Of a stretch of DNA of 25,088 nucleotides, positions 4,474-19,109 are shown piece after piece. The notes below the pieces were generated by a model. It worked only from the letters and a program-made list of their open reading frames with translations, searched no databases and was not told the origin of the DNA. The number at the start of each line of letters is the position of its first letter. Within the stretch, counting starts at the first letter, position 1. The DNA is from a virus. The DNA lies in the IMG/VR virus record IMGVR_UViG_3300042542_001385, positions 1 through 25,088 of that record; one strand, written 5' to 3'. The position numbers were made by a program, and so were the translations under genes.

Positions 4474-4600
4474 GAGTAGTCATCACTGCTGAGCGATGAG
4501 TATCTCTGTGCATTACACATCTCACTGGTTTAGAGATGCCTTCTTTGACTTCGCCACCATAGTGACGAAGCACATCAATCAAAAAGGTACTGCTCGCCAT
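4220..4600 (-). CDS. DNA primase, CHC2 zinc-binding part
   Basis: The product is 126 residues. Cys28-x2-His31 (RCVMHRD) and Cys52-x2-Cys55 (FCHTCGKGGDGY) form the CHC2 zinc ribbon of DnaG-type primases, and EMEGCDFVTAKQRA (67-80) is the usual following helix. After about residue 83 the sequence becomes Ser/Arg-rich and loses family likeness, exactly where the other frame acquires it. The 254-bp overlap with the TOPRIM frame and this switch argue for a frame change between about 4351 and 4330. A sequencing or assembly error of one base is the simplest alternative. The start overlaps the end of a small Cys-pair gene. Confidence 0.85.
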   Translation of the reverse strand: MASSTFLIDVLRHYGGEVKEGISKPVRCVMHRDTHRSAVMTTLGQNEGLYFCHTCGKGGDGYTIIMEMEGCDFVTAKQRATTIAPKSSGEISSSIKPRSKGLLGKPRVLSENRSGLSSRNRPTRLR

Positions 4601-4778
4601 TGGGATGATCTAGTGGGGTAGGTGCTGTGACTGGTGCTTTGCAGGCGTAGCAGTAAGCTGCTGTTCCCCACATCGCGGGGAAGTATGTTTCAGGATCAAA
4701 TATAACAGGAACCATAAACCAACGTTCGCCGCAAGAAACACACTCACAACTTGGAATACCTCTCGCATTGATACTCAC
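4575..4778 (-). CDS. small zinc-ribbon-like protein, 67 residues, GTG start
   Basis: The frame starts at GTG4778, overlapping the preceding TGA. The next Met (residue 22) would remove the first Cys group, so GTG is preferred. CECVSCGERW (11-20) and CYACKAP (43-49) supply two CxxC-type knuckles about 27 residues apart, the spacing of a treble-clef or zinc-ribbon fold. The middle holds a PETYFPAMWG segment like that seen in short phage zinc proteins. It overlaps the primase zinc-finger start by 26 bp. Function is unknown; binding of nucleic acid or a partner protein is inference. Confidence 0.6.
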   Translation of the reverse strand: MSINARGIPSCECVSCGERWFMVPVIFDPETYFPAMWGTAAYCYACKAPVTAPTPLDHPNGEQYLFD

Positions 4779-4927
4779 TCCCTATTCCTGTCAATCTCTT
4801 GTTCCACTAGATAACTTTGATACGCAAGTATTGCATCACCACAATTATCGCATAGATCATCTTTACAATTCCAAGGGTTATGAATATACCTTTGATAGTC
4901 CTGTAAATTAAACTCGCTTACTTCCAT
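4775..4927 (-). CDS. hypothetical Cys-containing protein, 50 residues
   Basis: ATG4927 is preferred over the upstream ATG4975. The 16 extra residues are a translation of the neighbouring 53-residue gene in another frame, and AGGGAGTGGAG precedes ATG4927. The protein has Cys22, Cys27 and Cys30 (CKDDLCDNCG), a likely metal-binding cluster, then a helix (ILAYQSYLVEQEIDRNRE). It sits in a row of three small Cys-pair genes upstream of the primase. No family is recognised. Confidence 0.55.
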   Translation of the reverse strand: MEVSEFNLQDYQRYIHNPWNCKDDLCDNCGDAILAYQSYLVEQEIDRNRE

Positions 4928-5079
4928 CTCCACTCCCTCGGTTGGTGTTGACAATAACAATCTTTGTAGCGACAAGACTTATGTAGCTCTAGTACTTTAG
5001 AGATAGCAAACACTTGCCCATAGTACCTCTCATACACTTCATAAGCATCAGCTGCATTAGTGCAGGATCTACACATCAT
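4918..5079 (-). CDS. small CxxC protein, 53 residues
   Basis: The frame starts at ATG5079 (a second ATG follows directly), overlapping the end of the resolvase-like gene, and stops at TAA 4920-4918. It fills what would otherwise be a gap. MCRSCTN (2-8) gives one CxxC pair; SCRYKDCYCQH (35-45) gives three more cysteines and a histidine, so a zinc-binding fold is likely. A Tyr-rich helix (YEVYERYYG) lies between. Function is unknown. Confidence 0.55.
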   Translation of the reverse strand: MMCRSCTNAADAYEVYERYYGQVFAISKVLELHKSCRYKDCYCQHQPREWRWK

Positions 5080-5494
5080 TGAGATCCTTCTTTCCTCTGC
5101 CCACTAAGTTGCAGAATTCGTCTAGTTGCATAATCACAAATGCTTTACTGGCGGATTTGTTTCTACGTTTAGCAATCACTACACCATAGATGTAGCCAGA
5201 GTGTTTAGATTGGAGTGCCTTAGTGTAGTTCTCCTTTTCTACTAATACCTGGTCTACCCACTCAGCAGGTGTGAACCTGGCTGCGTTCTTAGCCTCAATG
5301 ATTAGAGTCACATCATCACCATCTAAAGTTTCTAGTTGCACTGCTAAGTCTCCTTTGTCTAAGCGACCAGATTTAGCAAGTCGTACTACAATCTGGTGGT
5401 TCAATAGAAATCCATCTGACTTTAGATAGCGTTCTAAATCTGTTTCAAATCCTGTGCCTTTGGCTTTGTTAGCCCGCGATTGTTTGCTGTCCAC
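5069..5494 (-). CDS. Holliday-junction-resolvase-like PD-(D/E)XK nuclease
   Basis: The product is 141 residues. The N-terminus (SRANKAKGTGFETDLERYL, 6-24) has the conserved basic start and early Glu of archaeal Hjc-type and phage resolvases. The core follows as RLDKGDLAV (44-52) with its catalytic Asp, then LIIEAKNA (64-71) giving E-x-K. Enzymes of this fold cut branched DNA during replication, recombination or packaging. Here it sits directly downstream of, and overlaps by 26 bp, a RecA/DnaB-type ATPase gene. The name is by motif, so another nuclease role in the same superfamily is possible. Confidence 0.7.
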   Translation of the reverse strand: MDSKQSRANKAKGTGFETDLERYLKSDGFLLNHQIVVRLAKSGRLDKGDLAVQLETLDGDDVTLIIEAKNAARFTPAEWVDQVLVEKENYTKALQSKHSGYIYGVVIAKRRNKSASKAFVIMQLDEFCNLVGRGKKDLNDV

Positions 5495-6314
5495 TGTGCA
5501 TCTCCTGCCACATTAAAGGTTTCATCTGCGATGGATCAAGTATCTGTACCTTACTCGCATTACAGTGTAATGAGAAGTAACTCTTACCATCAGCAGAATG
5601 ATTACCAAATCTATTCTTTACTGCTGCAACTCTTAACTCGTTTGATATCGGATCCATAGCGATAGATAAGATCATAGCGGGTAACTGACTTGCTTTACCT
5701 AATATGGCTCGCCTTGGTGCAGGTATGTTAGACGCATAGTCTGACTGCTCGGACATATGTGTAAGTGCAAGCACACAAGATCCAGTAAGTCTTGCTACTT
5801 CGTGGAGCTGAGACATAATCGCTCTGATTCCTGCCCATTCCTCACCCTGCTGAGCAACTGCGTTCATTAAGTTATCCACAACAATCAACGCTGGACTAAC
5901 TCCGTACACCTCAGCGTACGCAAGTATCTCTAGTTCTATTACATCTAAGGTAGGGGAAGGATCAAAGACCCACCGAATATGTCCTCCGAATTCTCGGACT
6001 ATCGGATCATACGCGTGTGGGTCTCTGTCCAACGCTACTTCCACTTCGGACTGGTTCTGCTTAGTAATGTGTGCTGCTGTCCGTAACATCTGAGTTATCG
6101 GATCGGTATCAGCAGAGAAGTAGAGAGTGTCTATTCTGCTTTCTAGCGCATACACCAAGGCCATCAATGACTTACCACTATTAGGTTGCCCTGCTATCAG
6201 GATAAGTTGTGACTGCCTAAACTTCATACCAGCCTCATCTAGAACAGGCCACACTGACGGCAAAGGCTGAGCCTTTGTCGCTTGTGCGTGTACCGCTCTA
6301 GTAAGTGAAAGCAT
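5469..6314 (-). CDS. RecA/DnaB-superfamily ATPase (replicative helicase or recombinase)
   Basis: The product is 281 residues. Walker A is GQPNSGKS (42-49), followed by ALVYALES. Walker B is LIVVDNLM (143-150), and ALTHMSEQ (about 182-189) fits the RecA-fold sensor strand. Near the end, VKNRFG resembles the basic beta-hairpin region of DnaB helicases. There is no DnaB N-terminal domain, and the size is close to compact phage RecA-like ATPases such as Sak4, or to a helicase core. With the primase 1 kb downstream, unwinding at the fork is likely; with nucleases on both sides, recombination is the alternative. The stop region overlaps the resolvase-like gene. Confidence 0.75.
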   Translation of the reverse strand: MLSLTRAVHAQATKAQPLPSVWPVLDEAGMKFRQSQLILIAGQPNSGKSLMALVYALESRIDTLYFSADTDPITQMLRTAAHITKQNQSEVEVALDRDPHAYDPIVREFGGHIRWVFDPSPTLDVIELEILAYAEVYGVSPALIVVDNLMNAVAQQGEEWAGIRAIMSQLHEVARLTGSCVLALTHMSEQSDYASNIPAPRRAILGKASQLPAMILSIAMDPISNELRVAAVKNRFGNHSADGKSYFSLHCNASKVQILDPSQMKPLMWQEMHSGQQTIAG

Positions 6315-6784
6315 TAGCCGTTATACCAAGGGCCTTCTTCTAGTGAATCTTTGTTAACTGGTCCACCTTGCCACGCTGGTCCAGCTGCAGGATCAAACCA
6401 CTTCTTACGTGGCTTACCTGATTTATCCACCCAAGACTTCAATGCAAATGAACCTCTGCCATTAGAAGTAACTGGTGCTCCTGGTAATCCATAAGTCCAA
6501 GTGTTGTTGTACTTATCTTGGATTACTTGTGGCCCATCCGTTGAAGCAATAGCAAGGCTCCTGGAGACCACGTCAGTTGTAATACTTTTTGGTTGTAGCG
6601 GGGCTAGTGCTGAAAGCTCCGATCCAACCAGTGTTAGTGCCATAGCATTGACGATGTGTTCAGCATCTCCACTGCCTACTACGTTTGCTAAGTTCGTATT
6701 GAACTCAGCAATATCTTTACCACTGACCACAATGATTCTTCCTAAGTGGTCTTTGGCGCTTATCTGTATCCCGTGTTCCGCCAT
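6314..6784 (-). CDS. hypothetical protein, possible DNA-binding accessory
   Basis: The product is 156 residues and not recognised. The N-terminal part (IQISAKDHLGRIIVVSGKDIAEFNTNLANVV) reads as a small beta-beta-alpha unit. A polar linker follows, then WTYGLPGAPVTSNGRGSF and a basic aromatic stretch KPRKKWFDP. The C-terminus has acidic residues and aromatics (SLEEGPWYNG), faintly like the acidic tips of ssDNA-binding proteins. Position between a Cas4-type nuclease and a RecA-type ATPase suggests a recombination or ssDNA-binding role (inference). AAAGGAG seven bases before the ATG supports the start. Confidence 0.5.
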   Translation of the reverse strand: MAEHGIQISAKDHLGRIIVVSGKDIAEFNTNLANVVGSGDAEHIVNAMALTLVGSELSALAPLQPKSITTDVVSRSLAIASTDGPQVIQDKYNNTWTYGLPGAPVTSNGRGSFALKSWVDKSGKPRKKWFDPAAGPAWQGGPVNKDSLEEGPWYNG

Positions 6785-6785
6785 T

Positions 6786-7622
6786 TTATTCTCCTTTGGC
6801 TATAGTCGGGTCATCCAGTGTACCGCTCCCAAAGAAGCAAGATTGCTGGACACCACAGGTGTCGCAGTTTTCTGTGTTGGGAACGTACACATCATTTTCA
6901 ACTGCTAGTTGAAACCTTGTTAGTAAAGCATCTACCATATTTTTGTGACGACCAAGATCAAAAGTCTGAGTCATCTTGTTACTACGTAGATTGTAGTAGC
7001 AACCCTGAGTTACCTTGATTGGGTTATCAGGTAGTAACGATAGACCCCAAGCATAGAAGGCCAACTGCAACGGGGTGCGAGGTGTGGACTTACCAGTCTT
7101 TAGATCTACTATCACTAGGTCGCCATCGTTATTCATAAATACTCTGTCGAGAAACATCTTCACTGGCTTGCCGGTAGAGATAGAAGGTATCAATCCAATT
7201 TCTATGGCGGGTGTGTTGTTGATGTTAGCTATCTTCCAAGGTGACTGCTTCCTCCAGTCTCTGTAGTTAATCAACATCTCTAGACCTTTGAATCTCCACC
7301 AAGTCTCATCTTCATTAGGATAAAAAGGATCTTTATCTGATCTGACCTTGCTGGATCTAAGATTTTGTAAGTCCCAACCCTGTTGGATTGCTTCTTTAAT
7401 ACAGTTATCTATGTGTTGATGCCAAAATAATTCTAGATCCATACCTTCTAAGTCTAGAAGATTATGTTCATCCATCTCTTGAGTGGCATTATGGATTGCT
7501 GAGCCACCAATAGACCACCAGGCAGGCTTCTCTTGTACGTTGTATCGCTTTGTTAGTTGGTATGCGTGTCCACATCTAATGTAATTAGATAGTGAACTGT
7601 AAGATAAATGCGTTAGTTCCAT
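6786..7622 (-). CDS. Cas4/RecB-type Fe-S exonuclease
   Basis: The product is 278 residues. It shows the PD-(D/E)XK exonuclease order: His44 (SAIHNAT), Asp159 (FLDRV), then Asp173-Leu-Lys175 (VDLKTGK), and the RecB-type motif QLAFYAWGL (186-194). Cys17 (IRCGHAY) and the C-terminal Cys253-x2-Cys256-x5-Cys262 would hold a 4Fe-4S cluster as in Cas4 and AddB. Such phage enzymes resect DNA ends for recombination or degrade host DNA. There is no cas1, cas2 or CRISPR array nearby, so an immunity role is not supported. It heads the recombination genes; its ribosome-binding site lies in a 7-bp hairpin. Confidence 0.88.
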   Translation of the reverse strand: MELTHLSYSSLSNYIRCGHAYQLTKRYNVQEKPAWWSIGGSAIHNATQEMDEHNLLDLEGMDLELFWHQHIDNCIKEAIQQGWDLQNLRSSKVRSDKDPFYPNEDETWWRFKGLEMLINYRDWRKQSPWKIANINNTPAIEIGLIPSISTGKPVKMFLDRVFMNNDGDLVIVDLKTGKSTPRTPLQLAFYAWGLSLLPDNPIKVTQGCYYNLRSNKMTQTFDLGRHKNMVDALLTRFQLAVENDVYVPNTENCDTCGVQQSCFFGSGTLDDPTIAKGE

Positions 7623-7627
7623 TGGAA

Positions 7628-7650
7628 CTCCTTTGTTAGTGTGACAAAGG
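7628..7650 (-). promoter_or_regulatory. hairpin that can cover the nuclease gene's ribosome-binding site
   Basis: CCTTTGT (7630-7636) and ACAAAGG (7644-7650) are perfect inverted repeats around a 7-base loop. On the minus strand the 3' arm contains most of the AAAGGAG site that lies five bases before the nuclease ATG at 7622. Pairing would hide the site, suggesting translational control. The effect is inferred. Confidence 0.45.
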
Positions 7651-7675
7651 TATCACATAGGTCCGACAGAAGTTT

Positions 7676-8254
7676 CTATTGAAGGCGGCGTTTCTTTAAC
7701 CACAGTTGATTGTTTTGTTCAAGGATCTCTACCTCTGGATTAAACAAAGCTACGAATCTGTTGATACCTTTTTGTGGCTCATATTCAATACCTTGTGGGT
7801 GATGCCAAACATAATCATCAAAGGCTAGTATGCCACCTTCTTCAAGGTGAGGCCAAGCCAGTAGAGCATCAGTGAATACATCTAGTGCGGTGTGCGATCC
7901 ATCTATGTAGATGAAGTCATACATCCCTGTGTCTGTAATTAAAAATAGTAGGCTAGCTTGCTTAATGTGCTTGGCGTTTGGGTAAGGCTTTAGTCTACGC
8001 TTGTAGGTTTTATATACATCTTCCCAATCAAATTCTTTGTGGTCTATCTCATCAGAACCTTGCCAAGTATCCACATCCATTAGATGATGGTCTGGTCCTA
8101 CCAATAGATTCTTCATTAGCCAGATAGAAGCGTCCCCAGTAAAGGCACCGATCTGTAAGGCTGCCAGGTCTTTGCGACCTGCCAGTGGTTTAAGATGTTT
8201 CTCAAAATTATCTTGCGCCGTTTGCTTAAACCAATTTGGATACTTAGACATCAT
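7676..8254 (-). CDS. class I SAM-dependent methyltransferase
   Basis: The product is 192 residues. LQIGAFTGDASIWLM (33-47) is motif I of the Rossmann fold for S-adenosylmethionine. MYDFIYIDGSH (about 108-118) and LEEGGILAFDDYVWH (about 132-146) match the Methyltransf_24/TylF-type group, where acidic residues bind metal. Members often methylate sugar or small-molecule hydroxyls, so modification of a virion glycan is possible here, given two glycosyltransferases in the genome. The acceptor cannot be told from sequence. AGGAG sits close upstream of twin ATGs at 8254 and 8251. It is the first gene after the long intergenic region. Confidence 0.82.
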   Translation of the reverse strand: MMSKYPNWFKQTAQDNFEKHLKPLAGRKDLAALQIGAFTGDASIWLMKNLLVGPDHHLMDVDTWQGSDEIDHKEFDWEDVYKTYKRRLKPYPNAKHIKQASLLFLITDTGMYDFIYIDGSHTALDVFTDALLAWPHLEEGGILAFDDYVWHHPQGIEYEPQKGINRFVALFNPEVEILEQNNQLWLKKRRLQ

Positions 8255-8440: not shown

Positions 8441-8489
8441 GAGACGGTTGACTTGTCGCTTCAAGTTAAGTCAACGATCTAAATCTATA

Positions 8490-8945
8490 TCAGTACCAGT
8501 TATTTAGCAAATGGAACTCCAAAGCTTTACAAGGAGATCCGTAATACCTAGCACCTAAGTACTCTAATCCTTTCTCAATTTGTTTTTTAGGGTGTTTGTT
8601 TGGGTTTAATCCAAGCATCTGTGGAATCCCTCCCGCGTGGCGGTACTCTCCATTTAGATAGACTGGCTGTTTATTGAAGGCTCGGCTTCTCCAGTTGGAT
8701 TCTTTAGTCCAGAGTTTATCTAGACACTTCCATTCCTTACCCCGCCCTAATGATTCTAGACGGGTCTTAGCGTAGTTCTTACTGCGACTTACATCCCAAG
8801 ACCTTACCTCTTTACTTATGGCCTTAGATTCAATCCTAGAGGCTTTTAGGACTAGGTGATTTTCAGGCCATAAGTAGGCATTGGGTTGACCAGGTAGTAA
8901 CCAAAATGTAATTGCCATTACTACCGCTGTTATTTTTACTTCCAT
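8490..8945 (-). CDS. secreted lytic transglycosylase
   Basis: The product is 151 residues from ATG8945, chosen over ATG8990 because the latter lies inside a terminator hairpin and AAGGGGGA precedes ATG8945. Residues 1-23 form a hydrophobic signal-like segment (ITAVVMAITFWLLPG). The catalytic-type motif is WTKESNW (79-85) with Glu82, followed by AGGIPQMLGL (104-113) and GLEYLGARYYGSPC (126-139), the layout of actinobacterial SLT-type domains in resuscitation and endolysin proteins. Cys74 and Cys139 may form a disulfide. It should cleave peptidoglycan glycan strands. It completes the lysis module with the M23 peptidase. Confidence 0.78.
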   Translation of the reverse strand: MEVKITAVVMAITFWLLPGQPNAYLWPENHLVLKASRIESKAISKEVRSWDVSRSKNYAKTRLESLGRGKEWKCLDKLWTKESNWRSRAFNKQPVYLNGEYRHAGGIPQMLGLNPNKHPKKQIEKGLEYLGARYYGSPCKALEFHLLNNWY

Positions 8946-8970
8946 CGGGTCCCCCTTCGGGTTAGCTGAT

Positions 8971-9013
8971 AAACAGAAAAAGCCCCCCATCTAGGGCGAA
9001 CTAGATGAGGGGC
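8971..9013 (-). terminator. intrinsic terminator inside the lysis module
   Basis: Positions 8982-8994 pair with 9001-9013 (12 pairs, one mismatch) around the loop GGCGAA. On the minus strand it is followed by TTTTTCTGTTT. It lies just after the holin-like gene, so the transglycosylase may be made at lower level through readthrough or from its own promoter. Confidence 0.75.
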
Positions 9014-9029
9014 ATCAATGTAGCAGATC

Positions 9030-9224
9030 CTACTTAGTAGAACCAACTCCAAAGTCTGGTGATTTTGGGTCTAATGCTTTAAGCAGTGGACCCGCTACGG
9101 CGGTAGCTCCTGCTGTAAGGATAGCCTTCCAGTCAGTAACTCCAGCCAAGTACAAAGCCAAACCTGCTGCTACGAAAGCACGAAAGTATGACTGACTTGC
9201 ACTTATTAGTTGTTCTTTATTCAT
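9030..9224 (-). CDS. putative holin
   Basis: The product is 64 residues with two hydrophobic stretches, about 14-30 (YFRAFVAAGLALYLAGV) and 34-48 (ILTAGATAVAGPLLK), small residues in both, and a polar C-terminus (DPKSPDFGVGSTK). Size, topology and position between a peptidoglycan peptidase and a transglycosylase fit the holins of actinobacteriophages, which open the inner membrane at lysis. The start overlaps the upstream gene by 8 bp. Holins share little sequence, so the name rests on context. Confidence 0.65.
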   Translation of the reverse strand: MNKEQLISASQSYFRAFVAAGLALYLAGVTDWKAILTAGATAVAGPLLKALDPKSPDFGVGSTK

Positions 9225-9836: not shown

Positions 9837-11771
9837 TTATACCGTCCTTACTGTTACTGTTAGTAATCCACCAAAGCCATTAAACCTATCTCCTGGTGGT
9901 GTCATATTCATAAAGTCAACTTCCTCTACTTGAGCAATAAATGTTTCTCCAGTACGGAAGTCTTGAACTGTCACTGTGTCGCCAGTATTTTCTACTGCTT
10001 CTAACTCAAGGATGCGGTCATAGGCTCGGCCTTCATAGCCAACTTGGTTACCTAACGAATCAGTTTCTTGATCAAAGCAATAGAGTGGGAATTGAATAAG
10101 TCTTTGCTTTGGTGTAGCAGGTAGGGCTTTGATCTGGTAGCCAGTCATTACTGGCCCAGAGCTTGTAGTGCCAGCAGATCTACCTAGTGTAAACTTAAAT
10201 GATACATATTCCTGAGCACCAGTTGGGTAAGGAGTTGTACTCTCACCAGCAAAACTACCTTCACTAAAAGTATTAATGTTGTATTCGGTTCCATCTGCTG
10301 CCACTGAGTCAACTACTAGGCTTCCGTAAGTTAGATCTATTCTTGGTCGGATTAATTTATATACCTTTGGCTCTAGAGTGTTGTATCTAATACGACCAGT
10401 AGTTAAGTATCCGCTAGTAACTTTAACAGTAGCTGTCTCAACCCATACACCATCGCCAGGTACAGCAAACACTGCTCTGTCTGTATCTCCTAAGAAGGTA
10501 ACTCCAGTAGCAGAGGCGGTCTCGCCTGCTGCAACTAAGTCCCAAGCAAATGGAAATCTAAGTGTGTTACCAATAGGGGTAGATAGATCAATGCGAATTA
10601 GTCCTGCTTCACCATCTACTAAACCAGATACGTAAGCAAATCTATCTCTAAAGGATATTCCTTTAATGTCACCTTCAAATAGTAGCGGTCCATAAGACAA
10701 GTCACCGTTGTCTCCAAGTACACCAATTCGTACACCCTTGTTGGTACAAATAACTGCGTAAGTCCCAAGGTAGATGTCAAAGGCTTGAACTATCTCACCT
10801 TCTGGAAAGTCAGCAATAACTGTAGGAACATTTAGAGTTGGGAATCCAAGAGCATTGTCAGTGGACTCGTCTAATGTAATCTTAAAGATAGAAGACTGTG
10901 AGCCAGCATAACCTGCAGCATAGAAAGCAACTGGACCCTCAGCAATAGCACTCCACTTCCAACTTGGATTAGGATGTACGTAGTGTTCGGTTGGTAAAGC
11001 GTGACCACCCGCAGTGGTTGCTTTATTAGAATCTAATTCATATAGATCTCTATCTATTCCAGCAATTAATCTTTGCTTAACGTAACGTAATACAACTGTA
11101 CCAACTGGACCATCTAGATCATAGATGTGTCCGTCAGATGTAGATCCAAAGATATTACCTCTGTGAAGTTTGTCATTATCTGCAGCAAAGTATCTAGTAC
11201 CATCAGATGTTAAAGCCATAAAATCAAGTGTATGTGGTGCTGCTGTTAAGGTATAGGTAGTAACAGTAGGAGTATCAGTAGCCATAGTAAGTTTTTTAAG
11301 ATCAATACCTTCAGTAAAAACAACAGCATCTACATCATTAGTATTATCTCTAGCACCAACTACCAGTAAATTAGTAGAGGCTGTACTTCTGCCTCTTACT
11401 GTATTGTTTAACAGCGACACTTCACCTTGAGTCCATACATCTATACCTTTGGATTCTGTAAATCTGTAACGCAAAGTTTCATCCTGCCCTGGTTCAAAGA
11501 ACTTAATACCAGCACCTAAGTGGAATGATGACTGAGAGCGTAGCCACCAACCTGTAAGTGTTTGCTCACCTGGTTCAGTAGTTTGGTCAACCTGATCCTT
11601 ACGGTACTTAGCAGTTACCCTGCGGTAAGGTCGCTCATCAGTATTAGCTAGAAAGAACGGCTTACTATTAATAGCAACATTGTATTCAACTGAGTTGTTA
11701 GAGAAGGTAGATACAAGGTTATTACCTATGGCGAAGTTTCTTACCTTTTCGGTAATATGCTTATTAGTCAC
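9837..11771 (-). CDS. large beta-rich tail or tail-hub structural protein
   Basis: The product is 644 residues and the largest in the window. From about residue 110 to 450, repeated units of roughly 45-60 residues (for instance TSDGTRYFAADNDKLHRG, KQRLIAGIDRDLYEL, RFAYVSGLVDGEAGL) alternate strands and turns as in beta-propellers. The C-terminal 180 residues are also beta-rich. Phages of podovirus type carry similar propeller-like nozzle or stabilising proteins at the tail tip, but I cannot assign a named family. It is the last structural gene before lysis. No signal peptide or membrane segment is seen. Confidence 0.6.
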   Translation of the reverse strand: MTNKHITEKVRNFAIGNNLVSTFSNNSVEYNVAINSKPFFLANTDERPYRRVTAKYRKDQVDQTTEPGEQTLTGWWLRSQSSFHLGAGIKFFEPGQDETLRYRFTESKGIDVWTQGEVSLLNNTVRGRSTASTNLLVVGARDNTNDVDAVVFTEGIDLKKLTMATDTPTVTTYTLTAAPHTLDFMALTSDGTRYFAADNDKLHRGNIFGSTSDGHIYDLDGPVGTVVLRYVKQRLIAGIDRDLYELDSNKATTAGGHALPTEHYVHPNPSWKWSAIAEGPVAFYAAGYAGSQSSIFKITLDESTDNALGFPTLNVPTVIADFPEGEIVQAFDIYLGTYAVICTNKGVRIGVLGDNGDLSYGPLLFEGDIKGISFRDRFAYVSGLVDGEAGLIRIDLSTPIGNTLRFPFAWDLVAAGETASATGVTFLGDTDRAVFAVPGDGVWVETATVKVTSGYLTTGRIRYNTLEPKVYKLIRPRIDLTYGSLVVDSVAADGTEYNINTFSEGSFAGESTTPYPTGAQEYVSFKFTLGRSAGTTSSGPVMTGYQIKALPATPKQRLIQFPLYCFDQETDSLGNQVGYEGRAYDRILELEAVENTGDTVTVQDFRTGETFIAQVEEVDFMNMTPPGDRFNGFGGLLTVTVRTV

Positions 11772-11779
11772 TTACTCTC

Positions 11780-12694
11780 CTATTTTTCTACTACTTTTCC
11801 ATTTGTAAAATCTAACCCAGTAAATTCTTCAAACTGTTTTAGACTTCTGATAGTACCTAATTCTTGTTCTCCAACTACTTGCTCAGTGATAATTCTTTTT
11901 AGTTCTGCTCTCGAAATAACATCAGCCTCACTGTGTTCGGTAGGCCAGTCTTTCCAGACGTGCCTTCTCAAGTTATGCTGAAATGTTTTGTCGTGTGCGT
12001 AATACAAGTGAAAGACATATTGCTTATCAGGTAGAAGCAAGTGATAGCCATTAGTAAATGCTCTTGCTGCTATAAGTATTTCTTCTCCCCAAAAGGCCAT
12101 CTTTTTATTCACTGCTATTTTGTGAAAGTCACCGACAGTAAAGATAGAACCAGCAGACACTGACTTAGAACATTTGTTACTACTACCCACTGCTGTTTGG
12201 TGCGGAATCATAGTGTCACTAAAGTCAGGTCGTTCGTGAAAACTTATGTTAGTTACTTCGTATGGAGTATTGATAACTTCCATTAAACAATCGTCATAAT
12301 AATAAGAAGCAGGATATGCAGTGATAAGTGGCTTCTCAATACCACACGCTTGATAAGCCTTGAGGCAATCTACTAAACCTTTATCCCAATCTTTATCAAG
12401 CCTAGTGTGTGAATCTATTTGGAAGTAGTAATCCTCACCAGCATAAAGGTTATTAGCCATTGTCCTTGATGCTCCAACTCCTATGTTCTCAGGAGCTTGG
12501 CTTTCTACCACACTGATCTTGATGTGTTCTACCGCAGTGACATTAGGTATGTGTATGTGGTTTGGTTCGTAATAAGAATTGTGTATGCCGAAATGAATCT
12601 TATGCTTGCCACTACTTTGCTCTATGGCATTTAGTATTGTCTTAGGTAATTCGTAATCGTGGTATGAAGCAATCTGTACAAAGATACTTTCCAT
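11780..12694 (-). CDS. polypeptide GlcNAc-transferase-like glycosyltransferase (GT60-like)
   Basis: The product is 304 residues. IFVQIASYHDYELPKTI (4-20) and YAGEDYYFQIDSHTRL (84-99) match the GlcNAc family (Pfam PF11397, CAZy GT60), where the DSH motif (94-96) binds metal and nucleotide sugar. The spacing, SRTMANNLY helix and later FWGEEILIAARAF (about 205-217) fit as well. Known members transfer GlcNAc to Thr of trypanosome mucins or to hydroxyproline of Skp1. The gene for a polythreonine protein lies about 450 bp upstream in the same operon, a likely acceptor (inference). Donor sugar and acceptor are not proven by sequence. Confidence 0.78.
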   Translation of the reverse strand: MESIFVQIASYHDYELPKTILNAIEQSSGKHKIHFGIHNSYYEPNHIHIPNVTAVEHIKISVVESQAPENIGVGASRTMANNLYAGEDYYFQIDSHTRLDKDWDKGLVDCLKAYQACGIEKPLITAYPASYYYDDCLMEVINTPYEVTNISFHERPDFSDTMIPHQTAVGSSNKCSKSVSAGSIFTVGDFHKIAVNKKMAFWGEEILIAARAFTNGYHLLLPDKQYVFHLYYAHDKTFQHNLRRHVWKDWPTEHSEADVISRAELKRIITEQVVGEQELGTIRSLKQFEEFTGLDFTNGKVVEK

Positions 12695-12931
12695 TTACCA
12701 CTTCCCGATAGGGCAAGTCGCCTTCTGCAATTTAGTTTTGGCAGCCATAAAACAACCACACTTCTTGCATTGTTTAGTTACTTGTAAGAAGTGCTCGCAA
12801 CCATTACAGATTTCATAGCGACTAGCACTTACTTCTTCTGTTGCTCGCTCTTGTTTTGGGCTGAGTAAATCCCAAGGTTTAACTTGGTTTGTTTCTCGCC
12901 AAATCTGCCAAGGAGTTTTATTCTCAGGCAT
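12695..12931 (-). CDS. hypothetical zinc-binding protein, 78 residues
   Basis: ATG12931 is preferred over ATG12973, since the 14 extra residues overlap the upstream gene and contain no motif. The N-terminal MPENKTPWQIWRETN is followed by a helix, then RYEICNGCEHF, KQCKKCGCFM and KATCPIGKW. These supply six or seven cysteines in three groups, a compact metal-binding domain seen in short proteins of tail regions of phages. Its function is unknown. It lies between the tail-fibre-related 66-residue protein and the glycosyltransferase, and the stop abuts the latter's ATG. Confidence 0.6.
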   Translation of the reverse strand: MPENKTPWQIWRETNQVKPWDLLSPKQERATEEVSASRYEICNGCEHFLQVTKQCKKCGCFMAAKTKLQKATCPIGKW

Positions 12932-13124
12932 CAGGTGCAGTGAAGTCAGTTCCGTTGTAAGTCCAGCCAACATTCACTGGGCTATCTTCAGCAACAGGAA
13001 CTACAACAGGATTAGATTTCATACCTGCTACCCACATTTCTGCTGCAGGATTTATCGTAGTGTCCAATGTAAAACGCATAAACACTTCTCCGTCAGCAAC
13101 GAAGGCAAAGATTTCTTTACTCAT
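12924..13124 (-). CDS. small tail-region protein, 66 residues
   Basis: The protein shows FAFVADGEVFMRFTLDTT (6-23) and a C-terminal NVGWTYNGTDFTAPDA. This arrangement is common among small phage proteins next to fibres, some of them assembly helpers; the resemblance is by eye. No cysteine or membrane segment is present. It is placed between the polythreonine protein and a Cys-rich gene, overlapping the latter by 8 bp. It may help fold or attach a fibre. Confidence 0.5.
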   Translation of the reverse strand: MSKEIFAFVADGEVFMRFTLDTTINPAAEMWVAGMKSNPVVVPVAEDSPVNVGWTYNGTDFTAPDA

Positions 13125-13142
13125 AGTTATTCCTTTTTTAGA

Positions 13143-13454
13143 TTAGCCTAAACATACACCAGTCCAGTTGCAATTATCATCACATACTGGGGTAAATCCT
13201 GGGTCACAAGCACCGCTACATACGCAAGCAGTAGTAGTTGTCGTTGTAGTCGTAGTCGTAGTGGTAGTAGTTGAAGTAGTTGAAGTAGTTGTAGGAGGTG
13301 CTTCAGTTGTTGTAGTAGGTGCTTCAGTGGTTGTAGTAGTTGTGCCTGGGCCAGCCGTAGTGGTTGTTGTAGGGCCAGCAGTGGTAGTTGTTGTTGTCGT
13401 TGTTGTAGCTGGAATTATTATTCTATGTAAGATACCTAATAGACTGACATCCAT
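13143..13454 (-). CDS. mucin-like polythreonine protein with Cys-rich tail
   Basis: The product is 103 residues. After a short hydrophobic start (MDVSLLGILHRIIIP), residues 17-75 contain 43 Thr in runs of 9, 5, 6, 4, 3, 2 and 14, spaced by AGP, AGPG, EAP, EAPP and Ser. The C-terminus (76-103) has six cysteines (77, 79, 83, 91, 95 and 101) and probably folds with disulfides. Thr codons are mixed (ACA, ACT, ACC, ACG), so selection appears to act on the protein rather than on a simple DNA repeat. It resembles an O-glycosylated stalk carrying a small knob. The ATG overlaps the upstream TAA by one base. Virion location is inferred from the operon. Confidence 0.75.
   Translation of the reverse strand: MDVSLLGILHRIIIPATTTTTTTTTAGPTTTTTAGPGTTTTTTEAPTTTTEAPPTTTSTTSTTTTTTTTTTTTTTACVCSGACDPGFTPVCDDNCNWTGVCLG
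13230..13406 (-). repeat. threonine-codon tract (ACN repeats)
   Basis: This is the stretch encoding residues 17-75 of the mucin-like protein. It is a near-continuous ACN array with third-base variation, including 14 Thr codons in a row at 13230-13271. Length variation between related phages is likely. Confidence 0.85.
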
Positions 13455-14245
13455 TACGCTGCTAAGTCTCCTACTAGGAGGAAAGTATTAGAAGCTGTGC
13501 AAATTAAAGCAGCAGTAGAGTACTGTGCTCTTAGGTTTAACCCAGGAGTTCCATTAACTGTAGTTCCGCTAGCAGTAGCAGCAACAGCACCAGTTCCCAT
13601 ACGGGCAAAGTAAATCACATCTCCAGCATTAAAAATCCCAGAAGGAACTGTTAGGTTTGCGGTGCTTGAACTTGTGATAGTTACTAACTTATTCTTATCG
13701 GTTGCTACCAGTGTGTAAGCGGCGGTCTGTGCGTTGAGTCCAATGCTAATTACTGGAGTGGTTAGAGTCTTGCTAGTCAGCGTCTCTGTTCCTGCAATAC
13801 TAACGAAGTTAGCATCAGATAAAGCAGTATTAAACTGAGCAAGTGTTCCTGTAAGAGTATTGTTTGCTAGGTCTATTGTCTTAGTTGTCAAAGTGGCTGC
13901 ACCAGTAGCACTAACATAGCTACTCTTAACTGTTTCAAAGTCTGTAAGTTCTAGGCTAGTCAATACGTGGCGTACGGTTGCACCTGATAGGTGCTCAACT
14001 GCTGAAGTTCCAGCCTGTCCTCTAGTAATAGTAAGAGTATTACTGGCTCTAGCGGTGATCAAGCAAATTTCTTCTGATGCGGTATCAGGATCTATGGCAA
14101 TAGTAAAAGTATCAGGTGAACTGATAGTGGCCCCTGCTAACAAAGCAGCAGCATCTGCAACTACAGCGGTAGTATTGCCAGCACCAGCAGACAGTGTAGA
14201 AGTAAGTGTTGTATCTGTAGAAGTTGATCTATATATTCTTGCCAT
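13454..14245 (-). CDS. tail-fibre-like structural protein
   Basis: The product is 263 residues. It is rich in Thr, Ala and Ser, with strand-like repeats including ATLTTKTIDLANNTLTGTLAQ (about 117-137) and ETLTSKTLTTPVISIG (about 153-168), the TLTxKTLxxP motif common in tail fibres of many phages. The N-terminus (YRSTSTDTTLTSTLSAGAGNTT) suits a virion-attachment segment, and GQAGTSAVEHLSGATVRHVLTS resembles a baseplate/fibre module that recurs in marine and freshwater phages. It precedes the polythreonine gene and overlaps it by one base. Confidence 0.65.
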   Translation of the reverse strand: MARIYRSTSTDTTLTSTLSAGAGNTTAVVADAAALLAGATISSPDTFTIAIDPDTASEEICLITARASNTLTITRGQAGTSAVEHLSGATVRHVLTSLELTDFETVKSSYVSATGAATLTTKTIDLANNTLTGTLAQFNTALSDANFVSIAGTETLTSKTLTTPVISIGLNAQTAAYTLVATDKNKLVTITSSSTANLTVPSGIFNAGDVIYFARMGTGAVAATASGTTVNGTPGLNLRAQYSTAALICTASNTFLLVGDLAA

Positions 14246-14254
14246 TAGTTTTCC

Positions 14255-15151
14255 CTATACTGTGTAATGTAGGCGGATTGGGTTGCGATCTTTTAGTTTT
14301 GCGGATTCCTCTGCAAGTCTTAACTGATAGTTAGTGTAGAAGAATCTAGACAAACCTTGTGCTGCGTTAGAAGGTACCTTGCTATCTTGTAGGTCTGCCT
14401 CTGGCGAGGTAAGCCCAATACGACCTGCATCTTGATAAGCTGCTAAACGATACGCAGCACCCCAAGTAATTACATCTCTGCAGGATTCAGGTAGTCCACT
14501 AACATCAACAAAGTTATCTGTTCCATTTTCTAATTTAATTGGTGCCTGTGTGTACCACACCTGAACTGTGCGTCCAGGAGAAACAGAATCATAAATACTA
14601 ATTGTGTTATTACTATTGAAACTAGATACGTTGGCTAGTGAATCTTGTCTCCAACGTTTAATTGGCAACCACTCTTTACTAGATCCTAAAGTTTCCCAAG
14701 ATACAGATAGTACTGTTTCAGCATCATCTGATAAGGCATAGGTAGTAGTTGCAGCATTGAAAGTAAAGGTCTGATAAGTGGTAGCAAATAGATTAGGAAA
14801 GACGCTACCGATAGTGTCATTGATTGCTCGCTTAACAGCTATCCTTGGGAAAGTAGGAGCAAAGATAACCTTTGAGTATTGGGCGTGGGACGCAGCATTA
14901 GTGCCATCGTAGCCTCTACCAAACCCAGGAGCCAAGTTAACAGTATTGTTTCCGGTGTTAAATGAAACAGCATAAAGTAATTCATCATCTATTTCTATTA
15001 CACCTTTAGCAAAGTTTGAAGAATCACCAACAGTAAAGGTGGTGGCAGTTGTATTTATAGCAGCATTAAGATAATTGATTCTTTCTTGCTTCAAGGTGTA
15101 GCCTGATAGTGACTGACGTACCTCATCAATCATTTCATTTAGTGTGCTCAT
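14255..15151 (-). CDS. virion structural protein, possible head-tail adaptor
   Basis: The product is 298 residues. The N-terminal helix (LNEMIDEVRQSLSGY) is followed by a beta module (NTTATTFTVGDSSNFAKGVIEIDDELLYA) that phages use in adaptor or baseplate proteins. The C-terminal 90 residues are helical, with DVITWGAAYRLAAYQDAGR and LRLAEESAKLKDRNP, as in tail-tube or connector proteins. No named family is certain. It overlaps the glycosyltransferase gene upstream by 17 bp. In a short-tailed phage this would be a suitable gp11-like adaptor (inference). Confidence 0.55.
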   Translation of the reverse strand: MSTLNEMIDEVRQSLSGYTLKQERINYLNAAINTTATTFTVGDSSNFAKGVIEIDDELLYAVSFNTGNNTVNLAPGFGRGYDGTNAASHAQYSKVIFAPTFPRIAVKRAINDTIGSVFPNLFATTYQTFTFNAATTTYALSDDAETVLSVSWETLGSSKEWLPIKRWRQDSLANVSSFNSNNTISIYDSVSPGRTVQVWYTQAPIKLENGTDNFVDVSGLPESCRDVITWGAAYRLAAYQDAGRIGLTSPEADLQDSKVPSNAAQGLSRFFYTNYQLRLAEESAKLKDRNPIRLHYTV

Positions 15152-16202
15152 TTACCTTCTCCTGATAGAACTTCAAGTTATTTTGAAGTCGCTCATTCGT
15201 TGGATCTAACTCCAACGCTTTCTTTCCTAACGCGTATGCAACGTCATATTCTTCTAAACTCCAAGCAGCTAATGAGGTTATGTCATAACCCATATAGCCC
15301 CAAGCCCAAGCTTCTGATAGGAAGCCTTTTTCCCTGTGAGTTATTGATAATGCTTTCTCGCCTACCACTAAACACTCAGCCCACATCTGTTTGCTGTAGT
15401 AATAATTGGCTAATGCAAGTATTGATTCCCGACTTGGGTGGGCTTCAGTTGATTGAGTCAACCATTCTTCTGCATTATCAGGTTCTACTTTTGCTAGAAC
15501 TCTAAGGGCTGATGCCTTCTCCGCAGGAAACTCACTTACTTTTATGTAACGCTTTAGTAAATCGGCAGATTCTTTATCGCGGTTTTTGTAGTAGTACTCT
15601 CGGCCTAAGTAGTAGAGATGTCTAGGTATTGGATCTTCTTCTACCGCATCCTCTAACATAGTGAGATAACTTTCCCTAGACTTAGTATTGTCAGGGTAGT
15701 GATGGATCTCGAACTTAGTTGAGTGGGCTTTAATCTCTGGAATCTTGTATGGACATACTACTTCGTGTATTGGGTACTTCCAACGGTATCCAATACGAGA
15801 GTGACACTTGAATCCATCAAACTCTATATCCGCTTCTTCGCCTGTCTTACCTTCCTTCCAAGAAGATACATAGCGATAAGTGATACGGTTATTACCTTTT
15901 TTCCATAGACGTTCAATGTCTTTTCTCCAGTTGCCTACTAATACTTCATCCATATCTAATTGGATACACATATCTATATCCTTGGGTAATGCAGCTAAAG
16001 AAGCATTACGAGCGTCATCAAACCTCCAGGGTTTGACTGATATTTCTAATACGTTTATTCCCAGTCCTCTGGCTTTGCGAACAGTATTGTCAGTAGAACC
16101 AGTATCAGCAATAAGTAGGAAGTCAGCAGACTTTGCACTTTCATACCACCGATCTAAGAACTGTTCCTCGTTGAGGGAGATTGTATATACAGCTAGTTTC
16201 AT
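15135..16202 (-). CDS. GT2-type glycosyltransferase with TPR-like C-terminus
   Basis: The product is 355 residues. The N-terminal half is a GT-A fold: LAVYTISLNEE (3-13), IADTGSTDNT (31-40) and the metal-binding Asp83-x-Asp85 in QLDMDEV. The C-terminal half (from about 185) has helical repeats of TPR type, for example RHLYYLGREYYYKNRDKESA, ILALANYYYSKQMWAECL and DVAYALGKKALELDP. The same two-part design occurs in bacterial and phage enzymes that glycosylate proteins or glycans. Its place between fibre and adaptor genes suggests a virion target (inference). It may extend a chain begun by the GT60-like enzyme. Confidence 0.85.
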   Translation of the reverse strand: MKLAVYTISLNEEQFLDRWYESAKSADFLLIADTGSTDNTVRKARGLGINVLEISVKPWRFDDARNASLAALPKDIDMCIQLDMDEVLVGNWRKDIERLWKKGNNRITYRYVSSWKEGKTGEEADIEFDGFKCHSRIGYRWKYPIHEVVCPYKIPEIKAHSTKFEIHHYPDNTKSRESYLTMLEDAVEEDPIPRHLYYLGREYYYKNRDKESADLLKRYIKVSEFPAEKASALRVLAKVEPDNAEEWLTQSTEAHPSRESILALANYYYSKQMWAECLVVGEKALSITHREKGFLSEAWAWGYMGYDITSLAAWSLEEYDVAYALGKKALELDPTNERLQNNLKFYQEKVNEHTK

Positions 16203-16237: not shown

Positions 16238-17092
16238 TTAAGCCCAACTTACATTTCCTGTGCCAGCAGTCACTGTAGTTACTTTGAAGCCACCGCTAGG
16301 ACTGGCAGTAGTTCCTGTTAAACCTGCTCCGATAGTGATGGTTTTTGAGTCTGGATATTTTAGAATTACTGTGCCTGAGCCGCCATTAACACCGTTTGTA
16401 CCAGTGCCAAAACATCCACCACCACCGTTTCCAGTATTTGCTGCACCTGTTGTTCCTGTAGTGGCGGCAACTGGTGTTCCAGCACCACCCGAGGCTCTTG
16501 TTACAGAAGAACCAGTAATAGAACTGGCTGTACCAGCACCAGCAGCACCAGCACCACCGCCACTTGTACTTCCTCCAGCACCACCTGAACCTCCACCACC
16601 TGCACTTTGGTCACTTCCTCCAGTAACAGAACCACCAGCATATCCTTCTACTGGTGAATAACTACCAGCATTTCCAGTACCGCCAATTCCATCTGCTCTA
16701 CCTCCACCGCCACCACCTGAGCCACCTGAACGGCCACTTTCTTTTATCCCATCACCAGCACCAGGTTGATTTCCATCACCGCCTCCACCGCCACCTGAGC
16801 GTGTAATAGTGCTAAACACAGAATTACTACCACTAGCACCTCTACCGTCTGTTCCATTCCCTGCAATACCACCTGCACCGCCACCGCCAACAGTGACTGT
16901 GTAATTGGTTGATGCAGTTAATCCAGTTAATGTTGCAGTTCCATAACCTCCAGCACCTCCACCGCCACTACCAGCGTGCCAACTTCCACCACTTCCACCG
17001 CCTCCAGCAATAACTAAATACTCAACATCAAATGGAATTACAGTGACTCCATCCCAAAAGGAATCAGACTCTCTAAAACTTCTGATAGTCAC
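16238..17092 (-). CDS. glycine-rich receptor-binding protein, copy 3
   Basis: The product is 284 residues from GTG17092, overlapping the upstream TAG by one base. It starts with an attachment-like segment (TIRSFRESDSFWDGVTVIPF), then VEYLVIAGGGGSGG and about 200 residues dominated by Gly, Ser, Ala and Thr in polyglycine loops. This is the pattern of glycine-rich adhesins such as the gp38 type, whose loops contact the host surface. The last 40 residues (from ILKYPDSKTITIGAG) match copy 2 exactly at protein level but not at DNA level. It is the third of three tandem paralogues. Confidence 0.7.
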   Translation of the reverse strand: MTIRSFRESDSFWDGVTVIPFDVEYLVIAGGGGSGGSWHAGSGGGGAGGYGTATLTGLTASTNYTVTVGGGGAGGIAGNGTDGRGASGSNSVFSTITRSGGGGGGDGNQPGAGDGIKESGRSGGSGGGGGGRADGIGGTGNAGSYSPVEGYAGGSVTGGSDQSAGGGGSGGAGGSTSGGGAGAAGAGTASSITGSSVTRASGGAGTPVAATTGTTGAANTGNGGGGCFGTGTNGVNGGSGTVILKYPDSKTITIGAGLTGTTASPSGGFKVTTVTAGTGNVSWA

Positions 17093-17436
17093 TAGACTCG
17101 CTCAATCCAACTTAGTGTTGCTTCATCCCAATCCCATAGACCTTCACCTTCTGGGCGAGGTACAGGAGATTCCCATAGACAAGTATCTTCATTTAGTAAC
17201 CAAGACTCATAAGGCTTAGGAGGAATAAAAGCATCTCTTACACTGTCAAAGGTGTAACCAATGCCAGCATAGTTCTTACGATAATTATTGTTGTAGGAGG
17301 TACGCTTGCAAGTTTGTCCTCTAAAGTTGCCATACCAAGTTTCAGTGTCTAAGCCTTCGATTAGCTCAGTTTCGTCAATGCCAGTGATTACTTCAGTGAC
17401 AATGTTATTCTCATCTAAAAACGCATAATGAGCCAT
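17092..17436 (-). CDS. small conserved fibre-region protein, 114 residues
   Basis: The protein begins MAHYAFLDENNIVTEVITG and has KRTSYNNNYRKNYAGIGYTFD (44-64), then FIPPKPYESWLL (70-81) and a closing WDWDEATLSWIERV. This pattern is shared by many aquatic phages, where the gene lies among fibre genes; function is not established. The Trp-rich end suggests a compact beta fold. It lies between two glycine-rich adhesin genes and may be a cap or assembly factor for them (inference). Confidence 0.65.
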   Translation of the reverse strand: MAHYAFLDENNIVTEVITGIDETELIEGLDTETWYGNFRGQTCKRTSYNNNYRKNYAGIGYTFDSVRDAFIPPKPYESWLLNEDTCLWESPVPRPEGEGLWDWDEATLSWIERV

Positions 17437-17457
17437 TTATTTTCTCCTTGATTTCAT

Positions 17458-18279
17458 TTAAGCCCAACTAACATTACCAGTACCTGCAGTCACTGTGGTA
17501 ACTTTGAAGCCACCTGAAGGTGAGGCTGTAGTACCAGTAAGTCCAGCACCGATAGTAATTGTTTTTGAGTCTGGATATTTCAAAATCACTACACCTGAAC
17601 CGCCTGAACCGCCGACAAAGTTTTCTCCACCGCCTTTAGCGCCATTTCCTCGGTTTGCCGTTCCGTTTGTTGCAGCACCACTAGTTCCATTACCACCAAC
17701 AGCATAGGTAACACTTGTGCCACTTATTGAATTAGCAGTACCGGCACCACCTGTACTATTTTCTTGTCCAGTCGGAGTGCCAGCAGACCCGCCTCCCCCG
17801 CCGCCCCATCCTGATGTCCCAACGGCACCATTATTACCTTCACTTGGAGAAAAACTGCCTTGATTTCCTGTACCTGCAGCGGCTCCAGGAGTACCCGAAG
17901 AACGGCCGCCTCCTCCGCCTCCTGAACCGCCATTTCCTCCAGCCGTTGGTGAGGCTGCTCCGCCTCCTCCAAAACCTCCTCCAGTTGAAGTTATGGTTGC
18001 AAATACTGAATTAGAACCTTTTGTGCCTGCTGTCTGTAATGCACCGCCACTTCCACCAGCACCAACTGTTACGGTGTAAGCAACTCCAAGGGTTAAAGTT
18101 TGTGCAGTAAAGTTTCGATAACCGCCTGCACCTCCGCCACCGCCAAAAGCCCCAACACCATTTCCGCCGCCGCCCGAACCCCCAGCACCTGCTACTACTA
18201 AGTAATCAACAGATAAGAAAAGTTCAACATCATTCAAATTAAATCTAACACCAGCATCTCTGAATCTATTCACTGTCAT
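17458..18279 (-). CDS. glycine-rich receptor-binding protein, copy 2
   Basis: The product is 273 residues from ATG18279, which overlaps the TAA of copy 1 (TAATG); an upstream ATG at 18288 lies inside copy 1 and is less likely. The start (MTVNRFRDAGVRFNLNDVEL) parallels the other two copies, followed by VDYLVVAGAGG and a long polyglycine-loop region. The C-terminal 40 residues equal those of copy 3. A virion surface adhesin role fits the family and the neighbourhood. Gene duplication followed by loop divergence is apparent. Confidence 0.7.
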   Translation of the reverse strand: MTVNRFRDAGVRFNLNDVELFLSVDYLVVAGAGGSGGGGNGVGAFGGGGGAGGYRNFTAQTLTLGVAYTVTVGAGGSGGALQTAGTKGSNSVFATITSTGGGFGGGGAASPTAGGNGGSGGGGGGRSSGTPGAAAGTGNQGSFSPSEGNNGAVGTSGWGGGGGGSAGTPTGQENSTGGAGTANSISGTSVTYAVGGNGTSGAATNGTANRGNGAKGGGENFVGGSGGSGVVILKYPDSKTITIGAGLTGTTASPSGGFKVTTVTAGTGNVSWA

Positions 18280-19109
18280 TATGCCCAACTCACATTTCCA
18301 GTACCAGCAGTAAATTTCTTGTAACTAAAATCACCATCAGTGCCAGTAGCATCTGCTGTCAGTCCAGCACCTACAGTGAGTGTGCCTAGTGAGGTTTTCC
18401 AACGAAGTATCACTACACCTGAGCCACCAGCACCTGCTGTTCCTGAGCCACTCCAAGCACCACCACCGCCACCTGTGTTCACTGTTCCTGCAGTGCTTGC
18501 ATTACCCCCACCACCAGTTCCACCAACAGCACCAGCATTGTAAGAAGCACCGCCACCAGCATAATTGACTGAAGAACCTGTAATTGAAACTGCTACACCA
18601 TCTCCGCCGTGTGCTTGACCGTCAGTGTTGCCAGCCTCACCTGCTCCACCGCCACCGCCACCTGAAGTTACACCTCCAGAGCCAGTGCCACCATTAAATC
18701 CTTGATTTGCTGTTCCAGTGCCTACAGAACTAGAACTATCACCACCGCCACCACCAGAGCCACCATTAGAAGCATTTACACTGTTTTTACCACCACCGCC
18801 ACCTTTAGTGGAAGTAATAGTAGAAAATACTGAATCAGACCCTGAAACTCCAGCACCATTTGTGCCACCACTTGCGCCACCAGCACCGACAGTGATTGTG
18901 TAGTTTGTTGATTTGGTAATACCCAAAATAGTTTCTAAAGAACCGCCACCGCCAGTTGCTGTAATTGTTGAGCGAAGGCCACCTGCTCCTCCACCGCCAC
19001 CACCAACAGCACCACCGCCACCACCGCCAGCAACTACTAAGTAATCAATAAGTACAGTGACTTGGTCCCAGAACTTACCTTTATTTCCCTTTAATCGAGA
19101 AACTGTCAT
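18279..19109 (-). CDS. glycine-rich receptor-binding protein, copy 1
   Basis: The product is 276 residues. N-terminus MTVSRLKGNKGKFWDQVTVLIDYLVVAGGGGGG is followed by about 190 residues with many Gly4-Gly7 runs. The C-terminus ILRWKTSLGTLTVGAG is more divergent than in copies 2 and 3, but the final TAGTGNVSWA is the same in all three. That shared terminus probably docks to the fibre or trims folding, while the Gly loops vary. It is translated first of the three, after a 109-residue structural protein. Confidence 0.7.
   Translation of the reverse strand: MTVSRLKGNKGKFWDQVTVLIDYLVVAGGGGGGAVGGGGGGAGGLRSTITATGGGGSLETILGITKSTNYTITVGAGGASGGTNGAGVSGSDSVFSTITSTKGGGGGKNSVNASNGGSGGGGGDSSSSVGTGTANQGFNGGTGSGGVTSGGGGGGAGEAGNTDGQAHGGDGVAVSITGSSVNYAGGGASYNAGAVGGTGGGGNASTAGTVNTGGGGGAWSGSGTAGAGGSGVVILRWKTSLGTLTVGAGLTADATGTDGDFSYKKFTAGTGNVSWA

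Follow-up and report, generated by a model that had tools for sequence, protein, structure and literature searches.

In Trypanosoma cruzi, an enzyme of the GT60 kind glycosylates an eight-Thr peptide, KPPTTTTTTTTKPP, with UDP-GlcNAc and Mn2+ (PMC3769586). TcOGNT-2 of this organism and Gnt2 of Dictyostelium, both alpha-GlcNAc-transferases, share with the phage enzyme described here the family (GT60/PF11397), a DxH motif and polythreonine (polyThr) tracts as acceptors, in the phage a predicted one (PMC3769586). However, they work in the Golgi on secreted mucins, whereas the phage enzyme is a 304-aa, single-domain and putatively cytoplasmic protein whose predicted acceptor is encoded in a tail module. 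GT60 also includes Gnt1, the Skp1 hydroxyproline enzyme (PMC6939170). In Toxoplasma and Dictyostelium, Gnt1 is paired with the prolyl hydroxylase PhyA (PMC6939170), and the same combination of a GT60 enzyme and a hydroxylase was found in four of the Pro-rich viral loci described below (L017, L021, L022 and L035); Skp1 contains a single modified proline, whereas the phage proteins contain long PT or TPPPIIA repeats, and the window described below carries no hydroxylase. The animal and Toxoplasma ppGalNAcTs (GT27), which initiate mucin-type O-glycosylation, gave the best whole-model structural match to the phage enzyme, but identity was 12%, GT27 enzymes have an extra lectin domain that the phage enzyme lacks, and GT27 is a separate CAZy family. 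A DxH form of the metal motif characterizes both GT27 and GT60, two sister families whose members O-glycosylate Ser/Thr of polypeptides (PMC7185993).

Glycosylation of phage virions is known in a few cases, but the link between enzyme and acceptor is often missing. In mycobacteriophages, glycans on structural proteins have been proposed to act as a shield (Freeman et al. 2023, cited in PMC12619734); PMC12619734 places these glycans on the capsid and on tail-tube C-termini, whereas the present phage encodes a distinct Thr-rich stalk protein together with a GT60 enzyme. Proteins of uncultured Caudovirales annotated as "Glycosyltransferase, GlcNAc" (e.g. A0A6J5R1Z4) belong to the same family as this enzyme (43% identity, TM 0.93), but in the literature searched they are names only, with no acceptor linked. 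Glycosylated phage virions and enzymes of the GT60 family are each known already, and the open-access literature searched yielded no earlier link of GT60, PF11397 or polyThr to a phage acceptor.

The stretch of viral DNA analyzed here (25,088 nt, hereafter the window) is likely to carry a two-component cassette for the mucin-type O-glycosylation of a tail-associated stalk in a podovirus-like phage; we infer its activity, sugar, acceptor, virion location and benefit from gene context, motifs and structural models. In this case genome context names a candidate acceptor, and the stalk–enzyme pair is small and easily testable.

Organization of the tail module

Profile scans of the window, a 25-kb virus record, identified a major capsid protein, a primase, a DnaB helicase and a WhiB-like regulator. 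The nearest isolates, as judged by the hub protein, were Streptomyces phages, one of which is filed in Beephvirinae. The genes of interest lie on the minus strand in the order GT2-like glycosyltransferase with TPR repeats (GT2-TPR), head-tail adaptor, fibre-like protein, Thr-rich stalk, 66-aa protein, zinc-ribbon protein, GT60 enzyme and hub/nozzle-like protein, followed by lysis-type genes. One flank of the cassette site is formed by the adaptor gene (14255–15151; SU10_adaptor in Pfam, phrog_7578 in PHROG), which served as an independent anchor in the linkage tests, and the other by the gene for a hub/nozzle-like beta-propeller protein (9837–11771; phrog_11667). The latter was assigned by structure: the top PDB matches of its model, which is of moderate confidence (pLDDT 61), were P22 gp10 and Sf6 gp8 (E 5e-11). 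Since the hub model is closest to these two proteins, the stalk–enzyme pair appears to lie in a podovirus-like tail module, between the genes for adaptor and hub. This position, based on Pfam, PHROG and the hub structure, agrees with the phage-appendage setting that an earlier note on this DNA had suggested for the pair.

The fibre-like protein (13454–14245, 263 aa) matched phrog_38058 (tail fibre, 7.5e-19) and phrog_8780 (minor tail, 7.9e-16), and the stop codon of its gene overlaps the start of the stalk gene as TAATG. A programmed frameshift from the fibre into the stalk was considered and rejected (local RNA fold z −0.95), because this overlap and an upstream AGGAG suffice. The earlier note had placed the stalk gene beside the enzyme gene; the two are near each other on the same strand, but two ORFs intervene. 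One encodes the 66-aa protein (12924–13124; phrog_14370, E 4.5e-6), homologues of which occur in many cassettes. The other encodes a DUF6171-like zinc-ribbon protein (12695–12973, 92 aa as listed), which matched phrog_13558 at 3.1e-17 and DUF6171 at 3.2e-5, the latter under the cut-off; its homologues point to a start at 12931 (MPENKTPWQIW...). The TAA of the zinc-ribbon gene directly abuts the ATG of the enzyme gene, and a zinc-ribbon gene was present in 44 of the 47 tract-bearing near-clade enzyme loci (defined below) with at least 4 kb of upstream sequence. This linkage makes the zinc-ribbon protein a probable accessory of the GT60 enzyme. The GT2-TPR gene (15135–16202; Pfam, phrog_13126) possibly encodes a second-sugar enzyme, without a tie to the stalk; when GT2-TPR was used as a control query in an IMG/VR scan, its sole match was the window's own contig. 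No nucleotide-sugar gene was recognized in the window's cassette. Upstream of the cassette, three Gly-rich proteins of one family (phrog_2295) are encoded in tandem at 16238–19109.

The Thr-rich stalk protein

The stalk gene (13143–13454, minus strand) encodes a 103-aa protein composed of a 15-residue, mostly hydrophobic head (MDVSLLGILHRIIIP), a 59-residue Thr tract with AGP and EAP breaks (residues 17–75; 13230–13406) and a six-Cys C-terminal cap (residues 77–101; 13152–13226; CVCSGACDPGFTPVCDDNCNWTGVCLG). Thr accounts for 43 of the 59 tract residues (binomial 3e-29 against a local Thr frequency of 10.7%) and for 45 residues of the whole protein, the longest Thr run is 14, and all six Cys fall within the final 27 residues. 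The coordinates of the stalk and enzyme ORFs are exactly those given in the earlier note, its observations of 43 Thr in 59 residues, runs of up to 14 and a six-Cys C-terminal part are confirmed, and its proposal of a mucin-like acceptor architecture is supported; a long Thr/Ser(/Pro)-rich tract is what is expected of a mucin-type O-glycosylated protein. The Thr codons are ACT (21), ACA (14), ACG (5) and ACC (5), and single-codon runs do not exceed three. This mixing of all four codons in short runs indicates upkeep at the protein level rather than a microsatellite. A plus-strand ORF of 107 aa over the stalk gene (13168–13491) was rejected as a shadow reading (polyVal). Stalk equivalents at the same site in L130, L131 and L396 keep the plan of head, tract and cap with differing caps, while a homologue of the window stalk's cap is retained in L042.

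The GT60 enzyme

The enzyme gene (11780–12694, minus strand) encodes a 304-aa polypeptide O-glycosyltransferase-like protein, which matched PF11397 with 121.8 bits (E 5.7e-35; curated cut-off 21) and the PHROG family phrog_24687 ("glycosyltransferase") with 114 bits. PF11397 was the sole Pfam match for 37 of 37 aligned relatives. The ASYHDYELPKT and QIDSH motifs, from which the earlier note had recognized the enzyme, are both present in this gene. The DxH motif corresponds to D94-S-H96 and the C-terminal metal His to H229, and D94, H96 and H229 were invariant in the alignment of 37 viral relatives. The enzyme also contains WGEE at residues 202–205, which we take to resemble the WGGEN-type motif of GT27/GT7.

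An AlphaFold (AF2) model of the enzyme, built from 37 sequences, had a pLDDT of 93.2. In comparisons of this model by Foldseek and VIA-align, GT27 ppGalNAcTs ranked first among the PDB matches (Z 21.6, rmsd 3.2, 258 residues aligned across residues 1–304), and the first non-GT27 chain followed at Z 17.4; a sequence search of the PDB with the enzyme matched no chain. The profile match over the curated cut-off, a modeled GT-A fold near polypeptide O-glycosyltransferases, and DxH replacing DxD together with the C-terminal metal His support membership of the enzyme in GT60/PF11397, and the GT60-like nature claimed in the earlier note is thereby supported by profile, motif and fold. The enzyme lacks the domain architecture of GT27 itself, a catalytic domain plus a C-terminal ricin-type lectin domain: the catalytic-domain alignment spans the 304-aa model, and PF11397 is the only family matched.

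Linkage of the enzyme to Thr-bearing tracts

Relatives of the enzyme were collected as 64 viral loci, for which the enzyme was the only query, and then as the best 80 of 518 by its profile. Near-clade enzymes were defined as those with at least 35% identity to the window enzyme; they were clustered at 90% identity, and the counts cover those with at least 2 kb of upstream sequence. A Thr-bearing low-complexity tract was encoded upstream, within 7 kb and on the same strand, in 55 of 60 near-clade enzymes, against 2 of 60 with any T/P-rich tract downstream and 1 of 13 in the far clade (Fisher 4e-9; INDEPENDENCE: the loci share ancestry, and the P values given here therefore overstate the association). 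Removal of two near-clade loci that came from the polyThr scan left 53 of 58 with an upstream tract. As for the exceptions, the genes of L397 and L399 lie in replication modules, the contig of L038 ends too close to the gene, and L013 and L037 carry short TTTTT or Pro-Tyr tracts. At a fixed threshold (at least 10 Thr in 20 aa within 4 kb), tracts were found upstream of the enzyme in 22 of 41 cases and downstream in 0 of 39; the corresponding controls were 8/53 and 2/47 beside adaptor genes and 5/96 in polyglycine loci. The tract lies 0.3 to 6 kb upstream of the GT60 gene, in some cases 2–6 kb apart. The tract label requires 6 changes on the tree, and the gene order is partly inherited, so that the loci are not fully independent.

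The adaptor group comprises 64 loci (38 clusters) that hold the whole adaptor-to-hub interval. The stalk, zinc-ribbon and GT60 genes occurred together in 3 clusters, neither stalk nor GT60 in 35, and either of the two alone in none (P 1.2e-4); two further cassettes occupy the same site in L396 and L400. GT2-TPR accompanied all 3 cassette clusters, but 11 of the 35 clusters lacking both stalk and GT60 had it too, so that it does not explain the stalk. The pair recurs in other phages, a check that the earlier note had proposed, both among the near-clade relatives and in the adaptor-group cassettes, and no close relative among the 38 clusters has lost one member while keeping the other. The stalk–enzyme pairing is not due to chance. 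In the collection of isolated phages the near clade was found in none, and only three jumbo phages hold relatives, at 25% identity. Near-clade GT60 genes are also located in replication modules of short contigs, apart from tail genes, at L397:5033–5953 and L399:2275–3195.

The proteins that carry the tracts (carriers), taken here as functional equivalents of the window stalk, range from 100-residue miniproteins to fibre proteins of more than 1500 aa; fn3 or PASTA domains occur in some of them, and several can be recognized as tail proteins (fn3, central tail fibre J). With the tracts masked, they fell into 30 BLAST groups, and among the approximately 10 groups with at least 150 unmasked residues no shared sequence outside the tract was detectable at the sensitivity of BLAST. 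What the cassettes have in common is a tract rich in Thr or Pro upstream of GT60, with 4 to 11 Cys closely behind it in most carriers, and a zinc-ribbon gene. The linkage holds across enzyme identities of 39 to 67%, a range over which the carriers are replaced completely.

The converse association, from tract to enzyme, is weak. Among (ACN)12 stretches in viral contigs, 118 of 120 were polyThr ORFs, and PF11397 was found in 1 of 50 whole records with polyThr, compared with 0 of 50 for the polyGly control. PolyThr was accordingly rejected as a predictor of GT60: it is common in environmental phages, usually without the enzyme, and prediction runs one way, from enzyme to tract and not from tract to enzyme. 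As a predictor of GT2, polyThr was also not convincing (10/36 vs 4/36). In the viral contigs L145–L264, polyThr runs of 12 to 60 residues were common in phage proteins, mostly without GT60.

Proposed glycosylation of the stalk and alternative explanations

We propose that the GT60 enzyme, whose gene lies in the tail module, adds a sugar to the Thr residues of the disordered polyThr stalk while the tail is being assembled in the host cytoplasm. The predicted sugar is most likely alpha-GlcNAc from UDP-GlcNAc, because of the GT60 family, although GalNAc or a hexose is possible; a divalent metal would be held by D94, H96 and H229. Dense O-glycans could stiffen and extend the stalk and protect it from proteases, and might create a sugar-covered surface or keep the Cys-rich cap at a distance from the particle. 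The result would be a rigid, glycan-bearing appendage tipped by the Cys-rich cap, with candidate roles in binding to surfaces or to partners that recognize glycans, in resistance to proteases or in masking. If this is true, tailed phages employ, for a tail appendage, a type of polypeptide O-glycosylation described from eukaryotic mucins and Skp1, and the pair would constitute a compact cytoplasmic enzyme–substrate set for dense O-glycans in bacteria.

The enzyme may instead act on another virion protein, such as the Thr-rich fibre at 13454–14245, the Gly-rich proteins or the hub, with polyThr serving as a spacer in the tail operon. The fibre protein is fairly Thr-rich and always present, and the abundance of polyThr proteins without GT60 (all but 1 of the 50 records) means that a tract can serve as a plain linker. 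Yet fibre, adaptor and hub occur in the 35 adaptor-group clusters that have no GT60, whereas the stalk is found only where GT60 is, and upstream tracts are what mutually non-aligning carriers have in common; we therefore regard another acceptor as unlikely. A complete lack of functional connection, with low-complexity tracts common in tail regions and the pairing a matter of inherited gene order, is in keeping with the clustering on the tree, which partly reflects shared ancestry, and with the moderate Thr tracts in 8 of 53 adaptor loci. Nevertheless, the adaptor group gains or loses the pair as a unit, the linkage is kept between diverged enzymes with entirely different carriers, and tracts are strongly asymmetric between upstream and downstream, which makes this explanation highly improbable.

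Modification of host surface glycans or teichoic acid is frequent among phage glycosyltransferases, and the TarS/TarP fold was a lower-ranked Foldseek match of the enzyme model (E ~1e-6). A role of this kind, in serotype conversion or superinfection exclusion, seems very unlikely, since GT27 polypeptide transferases clearly outrank TarS/TarP, the gene lies in a tail operon coupled to the zinc-ribbon gene, and the cassette showed no membrane partner. Glycosylation of phage DNA bases, as performed by other phage glycosyltransferases, would fit the distant GT60 relatives in jumbo phages XacN1 and RAS14, which lie near DNA polymerase and carbamoyltransferase genes with no tract, and the replication-module genes of L397 and L399. 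Against it, PHROG scans recognized no base-hydroxymethylation gene in the window, and near-clade genes come after tail genes and tract carriers; we give this possibility scarcely any weight, as little as the lack of any functional link. In XacN1 and RAS14 (loci L461 and L462), the GT60 relative beside the carbamoyltransferase gene might modify DNA and not protein.

Pro-rich tracts and bacterial relatives

In some loci the tract is rich in Pro: PTPTPT in L017, L021, L022, L035 and L036, TPPPIIA in L018 and L023, and PPSPYYAP in L037. The Pro-rich cassettes add a PF13640 2OG-Fe(II) oxygenase, related to bacterial prolyl 4-hydroxylases, in whose alignment the HxD...H...K residues are visible; many also encode a radical SAM-SPASM enzyme, and several an NAD-dependent epimerase. 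The hydroxylase accompanied 7 of 9 Pro-rich and 6 of 38 Thr-rich tracts (Fisher 7e-4), but the tree offers only 3 independent contrasts, and most of the association comes from one clade. This suggests hydroxyproline glycosylation in the Pro-rich variant, which, given the few contrasts and the single main clade, is a lead and not a result. On a broader and more tentative reading, which we consider less likely than not, one widespread and modular GT60 clade would make both mucin-like (Thr) stalks and, with a phage prolyl 4-hydroxylase, extensin-like (hydroxyproline) stalks of the PT/PPP type, in some cases aided by a sugar epimerase and a radical-SAM enzyme of the cassette. If so, both the mucin route and the Skp1-type hydroxyproline–GlcNAc route would exist in bacterial viruses. 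In L017, L021, L022 and L035, the radical SAM-SPASM enzyme, the prolyl-hydroxylase-like oxygenase and the epimerase are encoded together with GT60 in tail modules; in L017 the PT protein is encoded at 6970–7764, the hydroxylase at 8464–9063 and GT60 at 9995–10909. Extensin-like repeats (TPPPIIA, PPSPYYAP) with Cys-rich ends are encoded upstream of hydroxylase and GT60 genes at L018:3087–3575, L023:4511–5011 and L037:2–301.

The GT60 enzyme has 256 bacterial relatives, and glycosylation of the phage stalk, if true, would raise the question by which route the family passed between phages, bacteria and protists. At bacterial GT60 loci, a Thr tract was found upstream in 5 of 72 and downstream in 1 of 73, a difference that was not significant (P 0.12). 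In the Nostoc locus L494, two PqqD-domain proteins with a TAT/signal-like leader and polyThr or Thr-rich tails are encoded on the plus strand (3947–4498 and 4621–5253), a short way upstream of a GT60 relative (6001–6870), and L508 is similar. These PqqD-domain proteins look like a bacterial peptide-type substrate for the GT60 family.
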